A DNA stretch of 35,440 nucleotides from positions 1-35,440 of the forward strand of contig JAAYCJ010000316.1 in the NCBI GenBank assembly GCA_012729815.1. Reading direction: 5' to 3'. This DNA is from Phycisphaerae bacterium (GTDB lineage Bacteria; Planctomycetota; Phycisphaerae; JAAYCJ01). Within the stretch, counting starts at the first letter, position 1. The number at the start of each line of letters is the position of its first letter. The position numbers and the translations under genes are program-made. Shown in pieces: positions 1,887 through 35,440 of the stretch. Under the pieces are notes generated by a model that saw only the letters and a list, made by a program, of their open reading frames with translations, had not been told where the DNA came from and did not search any database.

Positions 1887-2996
1887 CTACCGCTTAATCG
1901 TACCGGGGTTTTCCGACCGCAGTGCCAGCATCCGCTGCAGGGCGACCAGCGCGTCATGACGCTGATGCTCGTTCACGAACACCTCGTTGACCACCTGACC
2001 GGCGGCCAGGTTCTCCAGCACCCACAGCAGCCGCGCCGCCGTGCACCGCTTCATCGTCTCGCAGTACGTCTGCAGCGGCGAAAGGTTCATCACCGTCTTG
2101 CGCCCCTTCATCTTCTCCGCCAGGCGATCGACCATGTCCTTCTCGGTCCCGACCGCCCAGACGCTGCCGTCCTCGCTCTGCTCGACCGCGCGGATGATCG
2201 CCTCCGTGCTGCCCGCCATGTCCGCCGCCCGCACCACCTCATACCGGCATTCGGGATGCACGATAACGCGGACGTTGGGATGCTCGCGGCGAACCCGCGC
2301 GATGTCATCGACGGTAAAGTACATGTGCACGTTGCAGCAGCCGGGCCACAAAATTACCCGCGGCTGCTCGTGAAGCTGGCCCATCCCGCCGTCCGGCAGC
2401 TCCGGATTGTACAGGGCGGTGTCCGCCAGCGCCATGCCCATCGCCACCGCCGTGTTGCGGCCCAGGTGCTGGTCCGGAGCGAACAGGACGATATCGCCCC
2501 GCTCCAGAGCCCAGCTCATCACCGCTGAGGCGTTTCCGCTCGTGCAGATCACCCCGTCGTGCCGCCCACAGAACGCCTTGATCGCCGCCGATGAGTTGAT
2601 GTAGAACACCGGCACGACCTTCTGGCCGCCGAAGCGCTCGCCGATGTGGCTCCACGCCTGCTCCAGCGCCTCCGCTGAGGCGGTATTGGCCAAGTAGCAC
2701 CCAGCCGAAAAGTCCGGCAGGATCACCCGCTGCTTCTGCCCGCAGAGCGTCCGCGCCACCTCAGCCATGAAGTACACGCCGCAGAACACGATGTACCGGG
2801 CGTCCTGGGCGGTGGCCGCCTGCTCCGAGAGCTTCAGTGAGTCGCCGGTCACGTCCGCGAACTGGAACGTCTCCTGCGGCTGGTAGTGGTGGGCCAGGAT
2901 CAGCACCTCGCCGCCCAGCTTCTCCTTGGCCGCCCGGATCCGTTCGTACAACTCCGGTTGGGGGATTTCCGCGTATCGGTCGTCAAACTCCCGCAT
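1887..2996 (-). CDS. nadA: quinolinate synthase NadA
   Basis: This enzyme condenses iminoaspartate with dihydroxyacetone phosphate to quinolinate in de novo NAD synthesis, using a [4Fe-4S] cluster in the cytoplasm. The 369-residue protein shows LILAHHYQ (about 33-39), FCGVYFMAE (C72), WPGCCNVHM (C221), HPECRYEV and TYCETMKR (C312). The three named cysteines are the likely cluster ligands, one per pseudo-repeat domain. Length is normal for the family. An in-frame ATG at 3014 would add six residues. I prefer 2996 because it gives a TGATG overlap with the stop of the upstream Nudix gene, indicating translational coupling, and MREFDDRYAE is a plausible start. nadB and nadC are not in the window. 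Confidence 0.95.
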   Translation of the reverse strand: MREFDDRYAEIPQPELYERIRAAKEKLGGEVLILAHHYQPQETFQFADVTGDSLKLSEQAATAQDARYIVFCGVYFMAEVARTLCGQKQRVILPDFSAGCYLANTASAEALEQAWSHIGERFGGQKVVPVFYINSSAAIKAFCGRHDGVICTSGNASAVMSWALERGDIVLFAPDQHLGRNTAVAMGMALADTALYNPELPDGGMGQLHEQPRVILWPGCCNVHMYFTVDDIARVRREHPNVRVIVHPECRYEVVRAADMAGSTEAIIRAVEQSEDGSVWAVGTEKDMVDRLAEKMKGRKTVMNLSPLQTYCETMKRCTAARLLWVLENLAAGQVVNEVFVNEHQRHDALVALQRMLALRSENPGTIKR

Positions 2997-3475
2997 CAGT
3001 CCATGCCTTCCCAATCGATCCGGCCCAGGGCCCGCCAGTCGGCCAGTGCCCGCTGAGCCTGATCGATAATCAAATTGTGGTCAAACGCCAGTTCCGGCAG
3101 CTTCTCCAGATCGAACCATTCAAAGGCCTCGGCATCATCCGCCGCCGCGGCCGCCGCGCTCGCCTTCACCAGAGCCAGATATGCCAGCGAAATAGTCCGA
3201 CCTCGCGGGTCGCGCCCGGGCTCGCCGAACGCCCGGAACTGCTCGATGAAACCTGGAACAAGGCCAGTCTCTTCCTTCAATTCACGCAGCACAGCCGCCG
3301 GCAGGTCCTCGTCGATCTCCACAAACCCGCCCGGCAGCGCCCAGCACCCCTGGAACGGCGCCTTGCCGCGGCGCACCAAGCCGACCTGGCGGCGCCCCTC
3401 GACCCAGCGAAGGCACACCGCGTCCACCGTCACCGACGGCCGCGGATGGTCGTACGTAAACTGCTCCTTAGCCAT
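2996..3475 (-). CDS. Nudix hydrolase (ADP-ribose/NAD-type candidate)
   Basis: This is a 159-residue cytoplasmic Nudix phosphohydrolase. The Nudix box begins at GGFVEIDE and ends at RELKEETGL (about residues 48-71), with the REL-EE core intact. The start VTVDAVCLRW and the QGCWALPGG segment resemble the ADP-ribose pyrophosphatase / NrtR Nudix group. NrtR regulators carry an additional C-terminal winged helix; at 159 residues this protein has none, so it is more likely an enzyme. Its stop overlaps the nadA start (TGATG), which suggests a role in NAD or ADP-ribose turnover; that is inference from context. An alanine run (ASAAAAAAD, about residue 110) is low-complexity. It has no ribosome binding site and may be translated from a leaderless mRNA. 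Confidence 0.88.
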   Translation of the reverse strand: MAKEQFTYDHPRPSVTVDAVCLRWVEGRRQVGLVRRGKAPFQGCWALPGGFVEIDEDLPAAVLRELKEETGLVPGFIEQFRAFGEPGRDPRGRTISLAYLALVKASAAAAAADDAEAFEWFDLEKLPELAFDHNLIIDQAQRALADWRALGRIDWEGMD

Positions 3476-7893: not shown

Positions 7894-9234
7894 CTACGAG
7901 CCCGACGCCGAAACCTCCCTGGCCAGCCCCTGATACCCCAGGTGCATGATCAGATGGTCGAGCAGCACCATGGCGGTGAAGTTCTCAGCCACCGGCCAGA
8001 TCCGCCCGACGATCGTGGGGTCGCGCCGCGTGATCGCCGACAGCTTGGCGTCCTGGTGCGTGTACTTGTCGATCGTGTGCTGCGGCTTGGCGATGGTCGG
8101 AGTCGGTTTGACCGCCACCCGCACGATAATGTCCTGCCCGGTCGCCAGGCCCCCGGTGATGCCGCCCGCGTTGTTCGAGTCGAAGACGACCTTGCCGTTC
8201 TCGCTGTGCATCTGGTCGTTGTTCTGGTAACCGGTCATGTCCTTGACGCGGAAGCCCGCGCCGACCTCGACGCCCTTGACCGCCCCGATGCCGAGCATCC
8301 GGCCCAGTTCGCCGTCCAGCTTGGCAAACACCGGCTCGCCCAATCCTGTCGGCGCGCCGCGGACCACCACCTTGACCACGCCGCCCGACGAATCGCCGCT
8401 CGCGGTGATCCGGTTGCACGCCTCCAGCATGGCCTCCGCCGCGTCCAGATCCGGACAGTTGATCACCGAATGGACGCCGTACTTTTCCTTGATCGCGTCG
8501 GCGTCGAAGACGGGCGTGCGGCTGCGGATCGCGTCGATCTCCTTTTCCACCTCAGCCAGCACCGCCATCTTCTGCAACAGCCGCATCTCCGGCTTGATCC
8601 GCCCGCGAACGTAGATCTCCTGGTAGAACGGGTCGTGGTCGTGGCGCATCCGCTTGTACTGGTTGGTCAACTCCAGGGCCTTGACCGAGTCGATCTCCGG
8701 ACACGCCACGCCGGCCGCCTCATCGATGTAGCTGAACACCTCGATGCCGCACCGCTGCAGCACCCGCTTGGCGATCGCCCCGGCCGCCACGATGGTGCAG
8801 GTGTACCGGCCGGAGAAGATCCCCGCGCCCACCGCGTCGTCCGACGGGCCGTACTTGGCGAACGTGGCGTAAGATGCATGGCCCGGACGCGGCGTGCGAT
8901 TGGTGTCCTGGTACTGCTCGACGTGGATGTCGTGCCGGTCGAGGTTCGGGATGAAGACCGTCAGCGGCGTGCCGTTGGTCAGCCCGCGATTGCCCGCCCC
9001 TTTGATCGTGTCGGCGGCGTTGACCCCGGTGCAGATCACCGGCAGGTCCGGCTCCTTGCGCGGCGAGGACAGCTCATCCGCCCCCGGTTTGCGCAGCAGC
9101 AAATCGCCGTAAACCTCCTGCTCCGTGACCCGCAGGCCGGGCGGCAGCCCCTGAATGATCGCGGCCAGGCCGTCCTGGTACGAACCGCCGGAAACCGTCA
9201 CCTGAAAACACCGGCCGATGTGGCATCCGAACAT
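7894..9234 (-). CDS. divergent chorismate synthase family protein (AroC-like)
   Basis: Classical AroC converts EPSP to chorismate using reduced FMN. This 446-residue protein clearly has the fold: RPGHASY (about 116-122, H119), VAAGAIAKRVL, PTGLGEPVFAKLDGELG, VKGVEVGAGF, NNAGGITGGLATGQDI, VKPTPTIAKP and the final VLLDHL. However the GESHG motif near the N-terminus is GGSYQ (Tyr19 in place of the first catalytic His), and GGGRSSARET is replaced by VGAGIFSGRYT. It is also about 70 residues longer than usual, with an insertion around residues 190-250. ATG 9234 has GGAG 9 nt upstream; a frame extension to 9324 is not supported. It may be a lineage-specific AroC or a paralogue with a different reaction. 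It converges on the lipoprotein gene with a 9-nt gap. Confidence 0.85.
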   Translation of the reverse strand: MFGCHIGRCFQVTVSGGSYQDGLAAIIQGLPPGLRVTEQEVYGDLLLRKPGADELSSPRKEPDLPVICTGVNAADTIKGAGNRGLTNGTPLTVFIPNLDRHDIHVEQYQDTNRTPRPGHASYATFAKYGPSDDAVGAGIFSGRYTCTIVAAGAIAKRVLQRCGIEVFSYIDEAAGVACPEIDSVKALELTNQYKRMRHDHDPFYQEIYVRGRIKPEMRLLQKMAVLAEVEKEIDAIRSRTPVFDADAIKEKYGVHSVINCPDLDAAEAMLEACNRITASGDSSGGVVKVVVRGAPTGLGEPVFAKLDGELGRMLGIGAVKGVEVGAGFRVKDMTGYQNNDQMHSENGKVVFDSNNAGGITGGLATGQDIIVRVAVKPTPTIAKPQHTIDKYTHQDAKLSAITRRDPTIVGRIWPVAENFTAMVLLDHLIMHLGYQGLAREVSASGS

Positions 9235-9271
9235 AACACAAATCTCCAACTGCGACTGCGTCGTGTCCCGT

Positions 9272-9300
9272 ATTCTAGCGAAAAGCCCGCTGAATCGCAC
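9272..9300 (-). promoter_or_regulatory. candidate promoter for the AroC-like gene
   Basis: TAGAAT (9277-9272) is preceded by GTGCGA at a 17-bp spacing. The -10 is a good match and the -35 poor. The leader would be about 30 nt with a GGAG. Confidence 0.4.
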
Positions 9301-9359
9301 GGGTTTGCCGGAAGGAGCGGCCAAAAAGCGGCCTGCCGCTTAACGCTGTTTCGCGAAGG

Positions 9360-10145
9360 TTAATGCGGCTGGGCCGTCATCTGGTGCAGTTGCTTGACCA
9401 ACTCGGGAAGCATCCGGCTGGCCGGACCGGGCAGAACCACATCGGCCGGTTTGGGCGTGTCGGTCAGATCCGGCGCCACGTTGATGACGGTGGCGCCGGT
9501 CGCCTTGGCCTCCAGCAGGAGCGAAGCCACCGGCTGGACCGATCCGCACGTGCCGACGGTCAGAACCAGTTCGCTCCGCTGTGCCGCCTCAAGCCCAGCC
9601 TCAAACGCCACGTCGGCGGCCGCTTCGTCGGGCCAGGTCACGCCAGGCCGCAGCCAGTGGCCGCACCGCGGGCATCGGCACTCCGACTGAGAGTCCTCCG
9701 GCCCCAGCTCGCGGCCGAACCCGCACCGCGGACAGCGGTCGCGCCAGATGCTGCCGCACAGCTCGAAAACGTTTCGTGACCCAGCCTTCTGCTGAAGACC
9801 GTCGATGTTGCACGTGATCACGAAGAACTCCGGCACCTCCCGCTCCAGCTCAGCCAGGGCCTCGTGCCCGGCGTTCGGCTGGGCTCGAGCGATCTGCCGG
9901 CGGCGGTCGTCGTACCATCGCCGCACCTTCGCCGGATCGGCCTCAAAACCCCGGACGCTGGCGCATTCCTCGGGCTCAAACTCGTCCCACGTCGCCATGC
10001 GTCCTCGAGACGATGGCACGCCGCTCTCCGCTGACAGCCCCGCGCCCGTATAGGCCACCACAAAGTTCGCCTGGCGGATCAATTGCGCCGCGTGGCTCAC
10101 CGCCCTGCGGGCAACGCCCGGTACCGGTTGGTCTGGCTCCGACAT
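9360..10145 (-). CDS. sirtuin (SIR2) family protein with substituted catalytic His
   Basis: Sirtuins bind NAD and deacylate lysines or transfer ADP-ribose. The 261-residue protein has the Rossmann start AYTGAGLSAESGVP (about 31-44), TCNIDG (111-116), four or more zinc-type cysteines (C138, C141, C158, C161), and VGTCGSVQPVASL and NVAPDLTDTP toward the end. Three key positions differ from ordinary sirtuins: TQNID reads TCNID, the following LH reads LQ, and the catalytic His in ELHG is Cys130 (ELCG, codon TGC). The TFRG loop is SSRG. So it should bind NAD but is unlikely to be a standard deacetylase. Macrodomain-linked sirtuins also lack the His and ADP-ribosylate proteins, which is one precedent. 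No macrodomain gene lies next to it. Confidence 0.9.
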   Translation of the reverse strand: MSEPDQPVPGVARRAVSHAAQLIRQANFVVAYTGAGLSAESGVPSSRGRMATWDEFEPEECASVRGFEADPAKVRRWYDDRRRQIARAQPNAGHEALAELEREVPEFFVITCNIDGLQQKAGSRNVFELCGSIWRDRCPRCGFGRELGPEDSQSECRCPRCGHWLRPGVTWPDEAAADVAFEAGLEAAQRSELVLTVGTCGSVQPVASLLLEAKATGATVINVAPDLTDTPKPADVVLPGPASRMLPELVKQLHQMTAQPH

Positions 10146-10415: not shown

Positions 10416-10877
10416 ATGGACGGACAACTCTGGTGGATCTGGATGGTGCTGGCTGCGGTGCTGATCGTGGCTGAGATGTTCACCGCCGGTTTCTTCCTCC
10501 TGTGGTTCGGCATCGGGGCGGGCGTGGCCGGGGTGATGGCCCTGATCGGGCTGCCGTTTGTCTGGCAGTTGATCGGTTTCATCGTGGTTTCGGGGCTGCT
10601 GTTCGCCTTCTCTCGCCAGTTCGCCGAGGAGGTCACCGCCAAGCAGCCGCCGGGCATCGGGGCCGATCGGTTCGTGGGGCAGATGGGCGTGGTCATCGAA
10701 GCCGTCGATAACATCCGAAACACCGGCCGCATCCGCGTCGGACAGGACGAGTGGCGGGCCGACAGCGCCACCGGCGAAGGACTGCCCGTCGGTACCGTGG
10801 TCAAAGTCGTGGCCATGAGCGGAACCCACGCCGTGGTCCGCCAGGTCGAAGGCGAGGCAGCAGAGCAACAGGCGTAA
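10416..10877 (+). CDS. NfeD family membrane protein
   Basis: This is a 153-residue short NfeD protein. Three to four hydrophobic helices occupy residues 6-65 (WWIWMVLAAVLIVAEM, FFLLWFGIGAGVAGVMALIG, WQLIGFIVVSGLLFAF), followed by a soluble OB-fold domain (about 85-145) with GQMGVVIEAVDNIRNTGRI and VGTVVKVVAMSGTHAVVR. NfeD proteins work with SPFH/stomatin proteins in the membrane, and an SPFH gene follows after 66 nt, which supports the call. It is the short form without the ClpP-like protease domain. The ATG has GGGCAGGA upstream. Confidence 0.9.
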   Translation: MDGQLWWIWMVLAAVLIVAEMFTAGFFLLWFGIGAGVAGVMALIGLPFVWQLIGFIVVSGLLFAFSRQFAEEVTAKQPPGIGADRFVGQMGVVIEAVDNIRNTGRIRVGQDEWRADSATGEGLPVGTVVKVVAMSGTHAVVRQVEGEAAEQQA

Positions 10878-10943
10878 CCGCGGGTCCGGGTTACGACCCT
10901 GACGCAACGGCAATAACTCCCGCTCCAAAAGGAGGATTTCACG

Positions 10944-11888
10944 ATGGGCATGCTGATCTTCATCATCATCGTCGGGATCGTGGTCATCATCACCGCGGCC
11001 CTGGGTATCCGGATCGTCCGGCCGTACGAGAAGGGGCTGATCGAGCGGCTCGGCCGCTACCAGCGGACCGCCGACAGCGGGTTGACCATCATCATCCCTT
11101 ACCTCGAAAGCATGGTCAAAGTCGATATGCGCGAGCAGGTCGTCGACGTGCCGCCGCAGGCCGTCATCACCAAGGACAACGTCGCGGTCGAAGTGGACGC
11201 GGTGGTCTACTACGAGGTCACCGACCCGGTCAAAGTCACCTACAACGTCTCCGACTTCTACCTCGCCGCCACCAAACTCGCCCAGACCAACCTGAGGAAC
11301 CTCATCGGCGACCTGGCCCTCGACGAGAGCCTCACCTCGCGCGAGGCGATCAATACCAAACTGCGGCAGGTGCTCGACGACGCCACCGACAAGTGGGGCG
11401 CCCGCGTCTCCCGCGTCGAGCTTCAGCGGATCGAACCGCCCCGCGACGTGACCGAGGCCATGCACCGCCAGATGAAGGCCGAACGCGATCGCCGGGCCAT
11501 GATCCTCGAAGCCGAAGGACGCAAGAAGTCAGCCGTCCTCCAGGCTGAAGGCCAGCGCCAAGCCGCCATCCTGGAGGCGGAAGGCAAGGCCGAGGCCATC
11601 CAGAAGATGGCCGACGCCGACAAGTACAAGCGGGTCACCGTCGCCCAGGGCGAAGCCGAGGCCACCGTCAACGTCTACCAGGCCATCCACAAGGGCAACC
11701 CCACCGCCGACCTGATCGCGGTCAAATACCTCGAGGCCCTCCAGGCAATCTCCAACGGCCGGGCGTCAAAGGTCTTCCTGCCTTACGAGGCCTCGGGCAT
11801 CCTCGGCAGCATCGCAGGAATCAGCGAACTGCTCAAGGAAAAGACCGCCGGCGACGGTCACGCCGCACAGACGCCAAAGGCCGGCTAA
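10944..11888 (+). CDS. SPFH/stomatin-like membrane protein (QmcA/STOPP type)
   Basis: This 314-residue protein has one N-terminal membrane helix ([19 protein letters not shown], about 4-24) and then the SPFH domain: [40 protein letters not shown] and [21 protein letters not shown] long Ala/Glu coiled coil (about 190-250, with [20 protein letters not shown]) drives oligomerisation. The family forms membrane microdomains that influence protein quality control. Pairing with NfeD is the standard arrangement. A near-perfect AAAAGGAGG ribosome binding site precedes the ATG. The gene ends at a strong terminator. Confidence 0.94.
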
Positions 11889-11958: not shown

Positions 11959-13926
11959 CTATCCCGCTTTGACCATCCGCAGCAGACCGCCCGCGCCCAG
12001 AATCTTCCGCTGGCGGTCGGAGAGGTCCAGCTTCGCCTGGAACTCGGTCTTCTTCGTGGCGTTCCTGACCGTGACCGTCTCAGCGGCGCTTCGCACCGCG
12101 TCCATCAGACCGGGAATTTCAAGCCGGTCGCCCTGGTCGACCGCCTCATAGTCGGCGGGGTCGGCGAACGTCATCGGCACGATTGCGAAGTTGATCAGGT
12201 TGGCGAAGTGAATGCGCTCGATGCTCTTGGCGAGTACCGCCTTGACGCCCAGGTACATCGGGCACAACGCTGCGTGCTCGCGCGACGAGCCCTGGCCGTA
12301 GCTGTCCGCCGCCACGATCACGCCGTGTCCGCCTTCCCCCTTGAGGGCCAGCGCCCGGTCGGCGAAGCTCGGCTGGCCGTCCTCGTTGAGCGGGTTGAAC
12401 ACGTACTTGGCGTATTCGGGCACGTTGGACCGGTACTTGAGCAGCGCCCCGGCGGGCATGATGATGTCCGTGCTGATCTTGTCGCCCACCTTGATGACGA
12501 CGCAGCCCTTCAAATCGCTCGGGGGAACCTCGCTCAGCGGCGGCGGCACGATGGTCGGTCCGCGGAACACGTCCGCCGACCCCGCCTCGGCCTCCGGCAG
12601 CGGCGGCTGAAGCATGTTGTCGTTGACCGCGAAGCGCTTGGGCCACTCGACTCGCGGATACTCGATCCCGAACTTCTCGCCCAGGTCGCGCGGGTCGGTG
12701 AACTCGCCGGTGATCGCCGCCGCGATGCACGTCTCGGGGCTGGCCAGATAGACGCGGTCGCCCTTGGTGCCGCTGCGGCCGGGAAAGTTGCGGTTGAAGC
12801 TGCGCACCGACACCGTGCCCTGGGCCGGCGAATAGCCCAGCCCGATGCACGGCCCGCACGCGCTCTCCAGTATCCTCGCGCCGGCCGCGACAAAACTCCG
12901 CAGCCCGCCCGCCGCGTCGATCATTTCGAGCACCTGTTTCGAACCGGGGGCCACCGCGAACTCCACCTGCTCGTGGACCGTCCGGCCCTCAAGTGCCTTC
13001 GCGCAGAGCATCAGATCCTGATAGCTGGAGTTGGTGCACGAGCCGACCACCACCTGTCCGACCGGCTGGCCCGCCAGCTCCGAGACCGGCACGATGCTGT
13101 CCGGCGAACTGGGCGCGGCGGTCAGCGGCTCGAGCTGCGAGAGGTCGATGTCGATCACTTGGTCGTACGCCGCGTCGCGGTCGGCCGCCATCGCCCGCCA
13201 GGCCTCGCCGCGTCCCTGCGCCTCGAGGAACTGCCGGGTCGTCTCGTCGCTGGGAAAGATGCTGCACGTCACGCCCAGTTCGGCGCCCATGTTGGTGCAC
13301 GTCGCCCGCGCCGGCACCGACAGCGACTCGGCGCCCTCGCCGAAGTACTCGACCACCGCGCCGACGTTGCCGCGGGTGGTCAGGATCGAGAGCAGCTTGA
13401 GGATGATGTCCTTGGCTGAGACCCACGGCCGAAGTTCGCCGGTCAGGTTCACGCCGATCACCTTGGGGCAGGTCAGGTAGAACGCGCCGCCCGCCATGGC
13501 CACCGCCACGTCGAGTCCGCCCGCTCCGATGGCGATCATGCCGACGCCGCCGCCGGTGGGCGTGTGGCTGTCGGATCCGATCATGGTCGCGCCCGGACGG
13601 CTGAAGCGTTCGAGGTTCACCTGGTGGCAGATGCCGTTGCCCGGCCGCGAGTGCCACGCCCCGATCTTCCGCGCGATCGACTGAAGGTAGAGATGGTCGT
13701 TATGGTTCTCCGGGCCGAATTGGGCCATGTTGTGATCGACGTAGCTGACCGCCAGCGGCACGCGGACGCGGTCCAGGCCGATCGACTCGAAGAGCAGATA
13801 GCACGTGGTCCCGGTGGCGTCCTGGGTCAGGGTCTGGTCGATCCGGATGCCGATCTCGCGGCCGGTCTCGAGCCGCCCGTCCACCAGGTGCTCCTTGAGG
13901 ATTTTGTGCGTCAGTGAAAGTCCCAT
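11959..13926 (-). CDS. aconitate hydratase (about 650-residue type)
   Basis: Aconitase interconverts citrate and isocitrate in the TCA cycle using a [4Fe-4S] cluster. The 655-residue protein contains HNDHLYLQSIARKIG, GSDSHTPTGGGVGM, VGSCTNSSYQDL (first cluster Cys) and ESACGPCIGLGY (the CxxC pair), then RNFPGRSGT, TSPETC-type ASPETC, and a C-terminal swivel domain (about 490-640) with SYGQGSSREHAAL. The length fits the shorter aconitase class related to isopropylmalate dehydratase rather than the 890-residue AcnA. ATG 13926 has AAGGAG 5 nt upstream; the 12-residue upstream extension is unlikely. A homoaconitase or related hydro-lyase cannot be fully excluded by eye. Confidence 0.92.
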   Translation of the reverse strand: MGLSLTHKILKEHLVDGRLETGREIGIRIDQTLTQDATGTTCYLLFESIGLDRVRVPLAVSYVDHNMAQFGPENHNDHLYLQSIARKIGAWHSRPGNGICHQVNLERFSRPGATMIGSDSHTPTGGGVGMIAIGAGGLDVAVAMAGGAFYLTCPKVIGVNLTGELRPWVSAKDIILKLLSILTTRGNVGAVVEYFGEGAESLSVPARATCTNMGAELGVTCSIFPSDETTRQFLEAQGRGEAWRAMAADRDAAYDQVIDIDLSQLEPLTAAPSSPDSIVPVSELAGQPVGQVVVGSCTNSSYQDLMLCAKALEGRTVHEQVEFAVAPGSKQVLEMIDAAGGLRSFVAAGARILESACGPCIGLGYSPAQGTVSVRSFNRNFPGRSGTKGDRVYLASPETCIAAAITGEFTDPRDLGEKFGIEYPRVEWPKRFAVNDNMLQPPLPEAEAGSADVFRGPTIVPPPLSEVPPSDLKGCVVIKVGDKISTDIIMPAGALLKYRSNVPEYAKYVFNPLNEDGQPSFADRALALKGEGGHGVIVAADSYGQGSSREHAALCPMYLGVKAVLAKSIERIHFANLINFAIVPMTFADPADYEAVDQGDRLEIPGLMDAVRSAAETVTVRNATKKTEFQAKLDLSDRQRKILGAGGLLRMVKAG

Positions 13927-13964
13927 GGGTTCTCCTTGATCTTCCATCAGAGGCCAGACCATAA

Positions 13965-35267: not shown

Positions 35268-35440
35268 CCCCCCGCGCGCCATCAGCCCCAACGGGGCGCA
35301 AGAATGTAGCCAGGAGGCGTACGCCCCTGGGTATCAAACGCCCCCGCGCGCCAATCAGCCCCAGCGGGGCGCAAGAATGTAGCCAGGGGCGCGAGCCCCT
35401 GGACCTGAAGGGGCGCGAGCCCCTGGACCTGAAGGGGCGC
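35268..35440. repeat. GC-rich tandem repeat block at right edge
   Basis: A unit with GCGCGCC, then CAGCCCCARCGGGGCGCAAG and AATGTAGCCAGG occurs at about 35274 and again at 35346 (72-bp period). It runs into a perfect 24-nt tandem repeat (35386-35409, 35410-35433, and 7 nt of a third copy). Arms such as GGGGC and GCCCC can fold. The repeat continues past the edge. Bases 35229-35267 show nothing else. Confidence 0.8.

Follow-up and report, generated by a model that had tools for sequence, protein, structure and literature searches.

A degenerate sirtuin of a Phycisphaerae bacterium, with cysteine in place of the catalytic histidine and probably no working deacylase site

The sirtuin gene at 9360..10145 (minus strand) of the window, which is the whole 35,440-nucleotide stretch of DNA analysed here, encodes a protein of 261 amino acids that probably no longer works as a deacylase and has been either retired or put to a new use. 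From comparison with its relatives, the reading that we favour, and consider fairly probable, is that of a vertical orthologue in which the deacylase site has been lost and the sirtuin fold and zinc ribbon have been kept. The protein is then most likely catalytically dead, since the residues for NAD handling, the general base and the substrate strand are gone. Sirtuins are usually taken to be active on the strength of family membership alone, and annotation would name the present gene a deacylase.

The open reading frame runs from an ATG at 10145 to 9360 without any internal stop. Its product matches Pfam SIR2 at 115 bits (cut-off 24), pairs end to end with the Archaeoglobus Sir2 protein (AfSir2) at an E-value of 3e-52, and is matched by the NCBIfam sirtuin models, all of them under their curated cut-offs (for example 219 against 243 and 207 against 320 bits). 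The structure modelling proposed in the preliminary description gave a sirtuin fold by AlphaFold2 with a mean pLDDT of 92, a value helped by the ordinary sirtuin relatives in the input alignment, and a Foldseek search with this model returned AfSir2 (1m2k/1m2g) as best match with a TM of 0.86. The SIR2 domain with its Rossmann and zinc-ribbon fold is present by Pfam, by Foldseek and by this model built with sirtuin relatives. AfSir2 and the bacterial CobB-type deacylases are the best match in both sequence and structure, and they have the fold, the length, GAGxS, NID and the four zinc cysteines in common with the window protein, in which, however, the catalytic His, Gln98, Phe33, FGE, the Ser of GTS and the Asn of INP are all altered. 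No sigma-70-type promoter was found near the gene, a negative result of little weight in an organism of this kind.

A summary of the sirtuin GxG motif, of the three sub-sites for NAD and of the His that acts as general base is given in PMC8556138. The window protein was aligned with 47 ordinary sirtuins from its class (33–45% identical), and a column was taken as conserved when at least 85% of the 47 carry the same residue, which gave 69 columns. Numbering follows the window protein, the AfSir2 equivalent being 14 lower up to the catalytic His, and Phe33 is the usual Thermotoga name for the nicotinamide-facing residue. The remaining residue roles (shield, ribose, phosphate loop and acyl-lysine strand) follow established sirtuin structures.

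The window protein departs from its relatives at 18 of these 69 columns, most relatives doing so at 0–5; outlier relatives reach up to 16 (L016), still with His116 and Gln98. Codon 130 (9756..9758, minus strand, as are all codons below) is TGC for Cys at the position of the catalytic His116, and codon 112 (9810..9812) is TGC for Cys at the ribose-contacting Gln98; the His and Gln are found at these columns in 47 of 47 class relatives, so that the substitution by Cys is well beyond chance. The motifs read TCNIDGLQ and ELCG, within TCNIDGLQQKAG and VFELCGS, where codon 118 (CAG, 9792..9794) puts Gln at the His of DGLH. In the cofactor loop PTFRG has become PSSRG by Ser-Ser for Thr-Phe at codons 45–46 (10008..10013), the equivalent of Phe33 being Ser46. 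The substrate strand VVWFGE has become VTWPDE, with Pro-Asp for Phe-Gly at codons 172–173 (9627..9632), its Val, Phe and Gly residues counting among those replaced. Farther on, GTS has become GTC through codon 200 (TGC, Cys, 9546..9548) in a phosphate-loop stretch that reads VGTCGSV, and INP has become VAP, with codon 224 (GCG, 9474..9476) giving Ala for the Asn by which the adenosine ribose is normally held. The preliminary description had reported the Cys at the catalytic position correctly and had understated the extent of the change.

It had also judged a sequencing error to be unlikely, and with this we agree. The genome is a draft of 367 contigs, which would leave some room for errors of sequencing or assembly, but at least nine coherent active-site changes are spread along an open frame and several of the codons need two or three base changes, so that error is no credible cause; its probability is negligible and it was ruled out. 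The TGC of codon 130 is two changes from CAC, as had been described, but three from CAT, for which two had been given as well.

Several features of the fold and of the cofactor site are retained. All four zinc cysteines (138, 141, 158 and 161) are in place, as had been noted, and so are GAGLSAESG (G34–S38 of GAGxS), Arg34, Asn99 (N113) and Asp101 (D115), together with NID and most of the helix positions. The statement that the Rossmann motifs remain is therefore right for GAGLSAESG but not for GTC, VAP, PSSRG and VTWPDE. With the GAGxSAESG loop, Arg34, Asn99 and Asp101 kept, binding of NAD or nicotinamide by the protein is still possible.

The distribution of the changes was examined for the action of selection, of which it gives mixed, indirect signs. 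Active-site columns are changed in 8 of 20 cases in the window gene, against 10 of the 49 other conserved columns (p 0.09), and at 95% conservation the contrast is 7/18 against 4/29 (p 0.05), so that for this gene alone the bias falls short of significance (p 0.05–0.09). Pooling with the degenerate sirtuin of a second genome of the family (G002, described below) gives 16 of 40 active-site columns against 20 of 98 others (p 0.017), a test in which the two genes are related and the active-site set was picked by the analyst from known sirtuin contacts. This pooled bias, the open frame and the intact zinc cysteines together suggest that the fold of the decayed sirtuins is still constrained. A remodelling confined to the active site was ruled out, as conserved columns elsewhere have drifted too.

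That the gene is instead a dying pseudogene, from which all constraint has gone and whose frame is open merely for lack of time, appears unlikely. Its fast evolution in the tree, the redundant second sirtuin in the genome, and a GC3 of 0.81, below most neighbours, with a GC2 of 0.52, above most of them, speak for such a course; GC by codon position is gene-like, yet flatter than in most neighbours. However, neither stops nor frameshifts have appeared although about a quarter of the conserved columns changed, for which a rough simulation gives a chance of 5–8% if all codons drifted like the conserved columns and of 14–46% with fewer changes, and the zinc cysteines, the helix residues and 39 of the 49 conserved columns outside the site are kept.

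The history of the gene could be followed in three genomes of the window's family, all of which have an aconitase gene accompanying the sirtuin. In one of them (G001) the sirtuin has ordinary motifs and overlaps the aconitate hydratase gene (acn) by 8 nucleotides, ATGGATGA, and in G002 the two genes are about 200 bases apart. In the window, acn (11959..13962, minus strand; NCBIfam NF005558, 896 bits), the ancestral neighbour as judged from this adjacency in G001 and G002, is separated from the sirtuin by an nfeD-like and an SPFH/band-7 gene on the opposite strand (10416..11888, plus strand, by profile search), a pair that does not lie between acn and the sirtuin in G001 or G002. Adjacency to acn was not seen at the other loci of the class that were fetched, within flanks of about 1.5 kb. 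In the tree the three family sirtuins form one clade (97/83 with the longest rows left out, 59/83 with them in), and this clade together with the acn synteny indicates that the window gene is the vertical orthologue of its family's acn-adjacent sirtuin.

The G002 sirtuin (L060:8813-9598, minus strand) is degenerate in another manner. It keeps ELHG and reads GAGFYLQNG, TQTMDG, WCGE, GVNT and ISS, having lost GAGxSxxSG, Asn99, the Phe of FGE and the GTS and INP residues, and it too departs at 18 conserved columns. In the tree, the branches of the window and G002 sirtuins are both about 2.7 times as long as that of G001. A shared ancestral decay of the two was rejected, since the ordinary G001 sirtuin is sister to that of G002 (99/80) and the two share 5 of 18 changed columns, as many as chance would give (p 0.54); separate decay of each is the better reading. 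The window genome and G002 each encode one more sirtuin, ordinary in its motifs (G000:C302 in the window genome and G002:C36, 57% identical), and none was found in G001, whose genome is only 73% complete.

These observations are consistent with the following course of events. An ordinary acn-linked sirtuin would have been inherited vertically in this bacterial family, and in the window genome the second sirtuin may have taken over deacylation through redundancy. The gene was apparently also separated from aconitase, and constraint may have been relaxed by both circumstances. The general-base His, the ribose Gln, the nicotinamide Phe, the phosphate-loop Ser, the adenosine-ribose Asn and the FGE strand would then have been lost, and with these residues missing NAD-dependent deacylation would no longer take place. 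A residual non-catalytic binding role, for example for a former protein partner, may be imagined. In E. coli, CobB removes acetyl groups from aconitases and brings AcnA activity back (PMC8987015); by this analogy, which is not proof, it is plausible that the ancestral sirtuin acted on aconitase. Sirtuin chemistry would thus have been lost within one bacterial family while the G001 orthologue stays ordinary and overlaps the end of acn, so that the loss, and the link to aconitase suspected for the ancestor, can be tested directly. A general analogy is offered by class IIa HDACs and other pseudo-deacylases, where the fold outlives the loss of a catalytic residue, the class IIa HDACs having an unrelated zinc-dependent fold.

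The preliminary description had further proposed a new or changed activity, possibly using Cys130. Loss of the ordinary deacylase chemistry is well supported, but a new NAD-linked activity of Cys130 is weakened by the changes at other NAD residues, and a new Cys-based activity is unlikely. A neofunctionalised sirtuin, with Cys130 (and Cys112 and Cys200) as nucleophile, metal or redox site, is on the whole rather unlikely, though several points favour it. The nicotinamide pocket (Asn99/Asp101) and the GAG loop are intact, no stop interrupts the frame, the model has high confidence, and SirTM shows that ADP-ribosyltransferase activity is possible in a sirtuin that lacks the His (PMC4518038). Changes to Cys make up 4 of 18 in the window protein against 12 of 288 in the relatives (p 0.01, a post hoc count), and this over-representation would suit a new thiol site and counts against a dead enzyme; the total of nine Cys is not out of the ordinary. 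An apparently maintained clade of Cys-bearing sirtuins also exists in Calditrichia. On the other hand, Phe33, Gln98, the GTS Ser and the A-site Asn have gone together, the substrate strand is disrupted where FGE has become PDE, drift has reached conserved columns outside the site as well (10/49), and the full set of changes is seen in one genome only.

The analogy with the macrodomain-associated class M sirtuins, which had been cited alongside this proposal, does not hold. The catalytic His is missing from class M (SirTM) as it is from the window protein, and both retain the Asn of TxN, the equivalent of Asn118 (PMC4518038). However, class M carries a required Gln (SirTM Gln137) in place of the His (PMC4518038), where the window protein has Cys, and its phosphate loop is GVGx[NT]TP, which is absent here. 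It belongs to an operon with macrodomain, GcvH-L and LplA2 genes, none of which is among the neighbours scanned (aroC, nfeD, SPFH and acn), the two macrodomain genes of the genome sitting on other contigs; AfSir2 is moreover the nearest solved structure. Class M identity is very improbable and was ruled out on residues and neighbours.

The search for homologues that had been advised was made by a peptide scan of 85k genomes, which found no close homologue of the window protein, and no counterpart was found in viral contigs. A nucleotide pattern written for sirtuins whose catalytic position is Cys was then scanned over 84,980 species and matched seven stretches, four of which are sirtuins other than the window gene. 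The His version of the pattern recovers 65 of 79 ordinary sirtuins, a recall of about 80%. His-to-Cys sirtuins are very rare, since at that recall about 85,000 species yielded just four besides the window gene. They belong to Ruminiclostridium, Lachnospiraceae and two Calditrichia, with Gln98 replaced by Val, Leu, Met and Leu, and a third Calditrichia genome (G402) has one more that the pattern missed. Cys-bearing sirtuins do exist, then, but distant from the window gene and independent of it. No paper on bacterial Cys-sirtuins or pseudo-sirtuins was found in the literature searched.

The three Calditrichia genes (L037, 640-1380, minus strand; L038, 6128-6859, minus strand; L110, 2581-3381, plus strand) carry Cys where the catalytic His would stand, Met, Leu or Val for Gln98 and a shortened cofactor loop, and the L038 copy shares 53 and 58% identity with the other two. 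Each lies near a peptide deformylase gene (def) in a genome with ordinary paralogues, and this deformylase-linked clade looks stably maintained. It is like the window gene in the Cys, the replaced Gln98, the zinc cysteines and the ordinary paralogues, and unlike it in a cofactor loop four residues shorter, the retained EIN, conservation across three genomes, the nearby def and a separate origin, there being no close kinship between the two. That the His-to-Cys sirtuins, which arose several times and have Gln98 replaced too, are working proteins, either with another chemistry based on a thiolate, a metal or redox or as NAD sensors at the old ribose site, the window gene being one origin and the Calditrichia clade another, is in our opinion quite doubtful. 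These rare independent cases suggest that a thiol is tolerated, or occasionally favoured, at this position once Gln98 is gone. The Calditrichia clade is a better target for follow-up than the window gene.

Two more observations concern degenerate sirtuins. At the Ruminiclostridium locus (L033) an ordinary and a degenerate sirtuin (GPAFSLEAG, TVNVDG, ELCG) stand side by side as two tandem ORFs, likely a duplication followed by decay of one copy. A further one, in a Calditrichia genome (G398, L076), has Lys instead of the catalytic His (ELKG) and reads GNGIKAES for GAGxSxES.

Other features of the window were recorded as follows. Downstream of the sirtuin lies the chorismate synthase gene aroC (7894..9324, minus strand, start probably near 9234; Pfam PF01264, 313 bits), whose match spans about 420 residues against a profile of 327 positions, which suggests that some 90 residues have been inserted. 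The NAD-biosynthesis gene nadA (quinolinate synthase), about 6 kb away from the sirtuin, overlaps a Nudix gene at 1887-3475 (minus strand), the best NCBIfam match of the latter being an ADP-ribose-responsive repressor family at 88 bits, far below the cut-off of 400. An Acido-Lenti-1 RNA (Rfam RF01687, 43 bits) is found at 35357-35402 on the minus strand.
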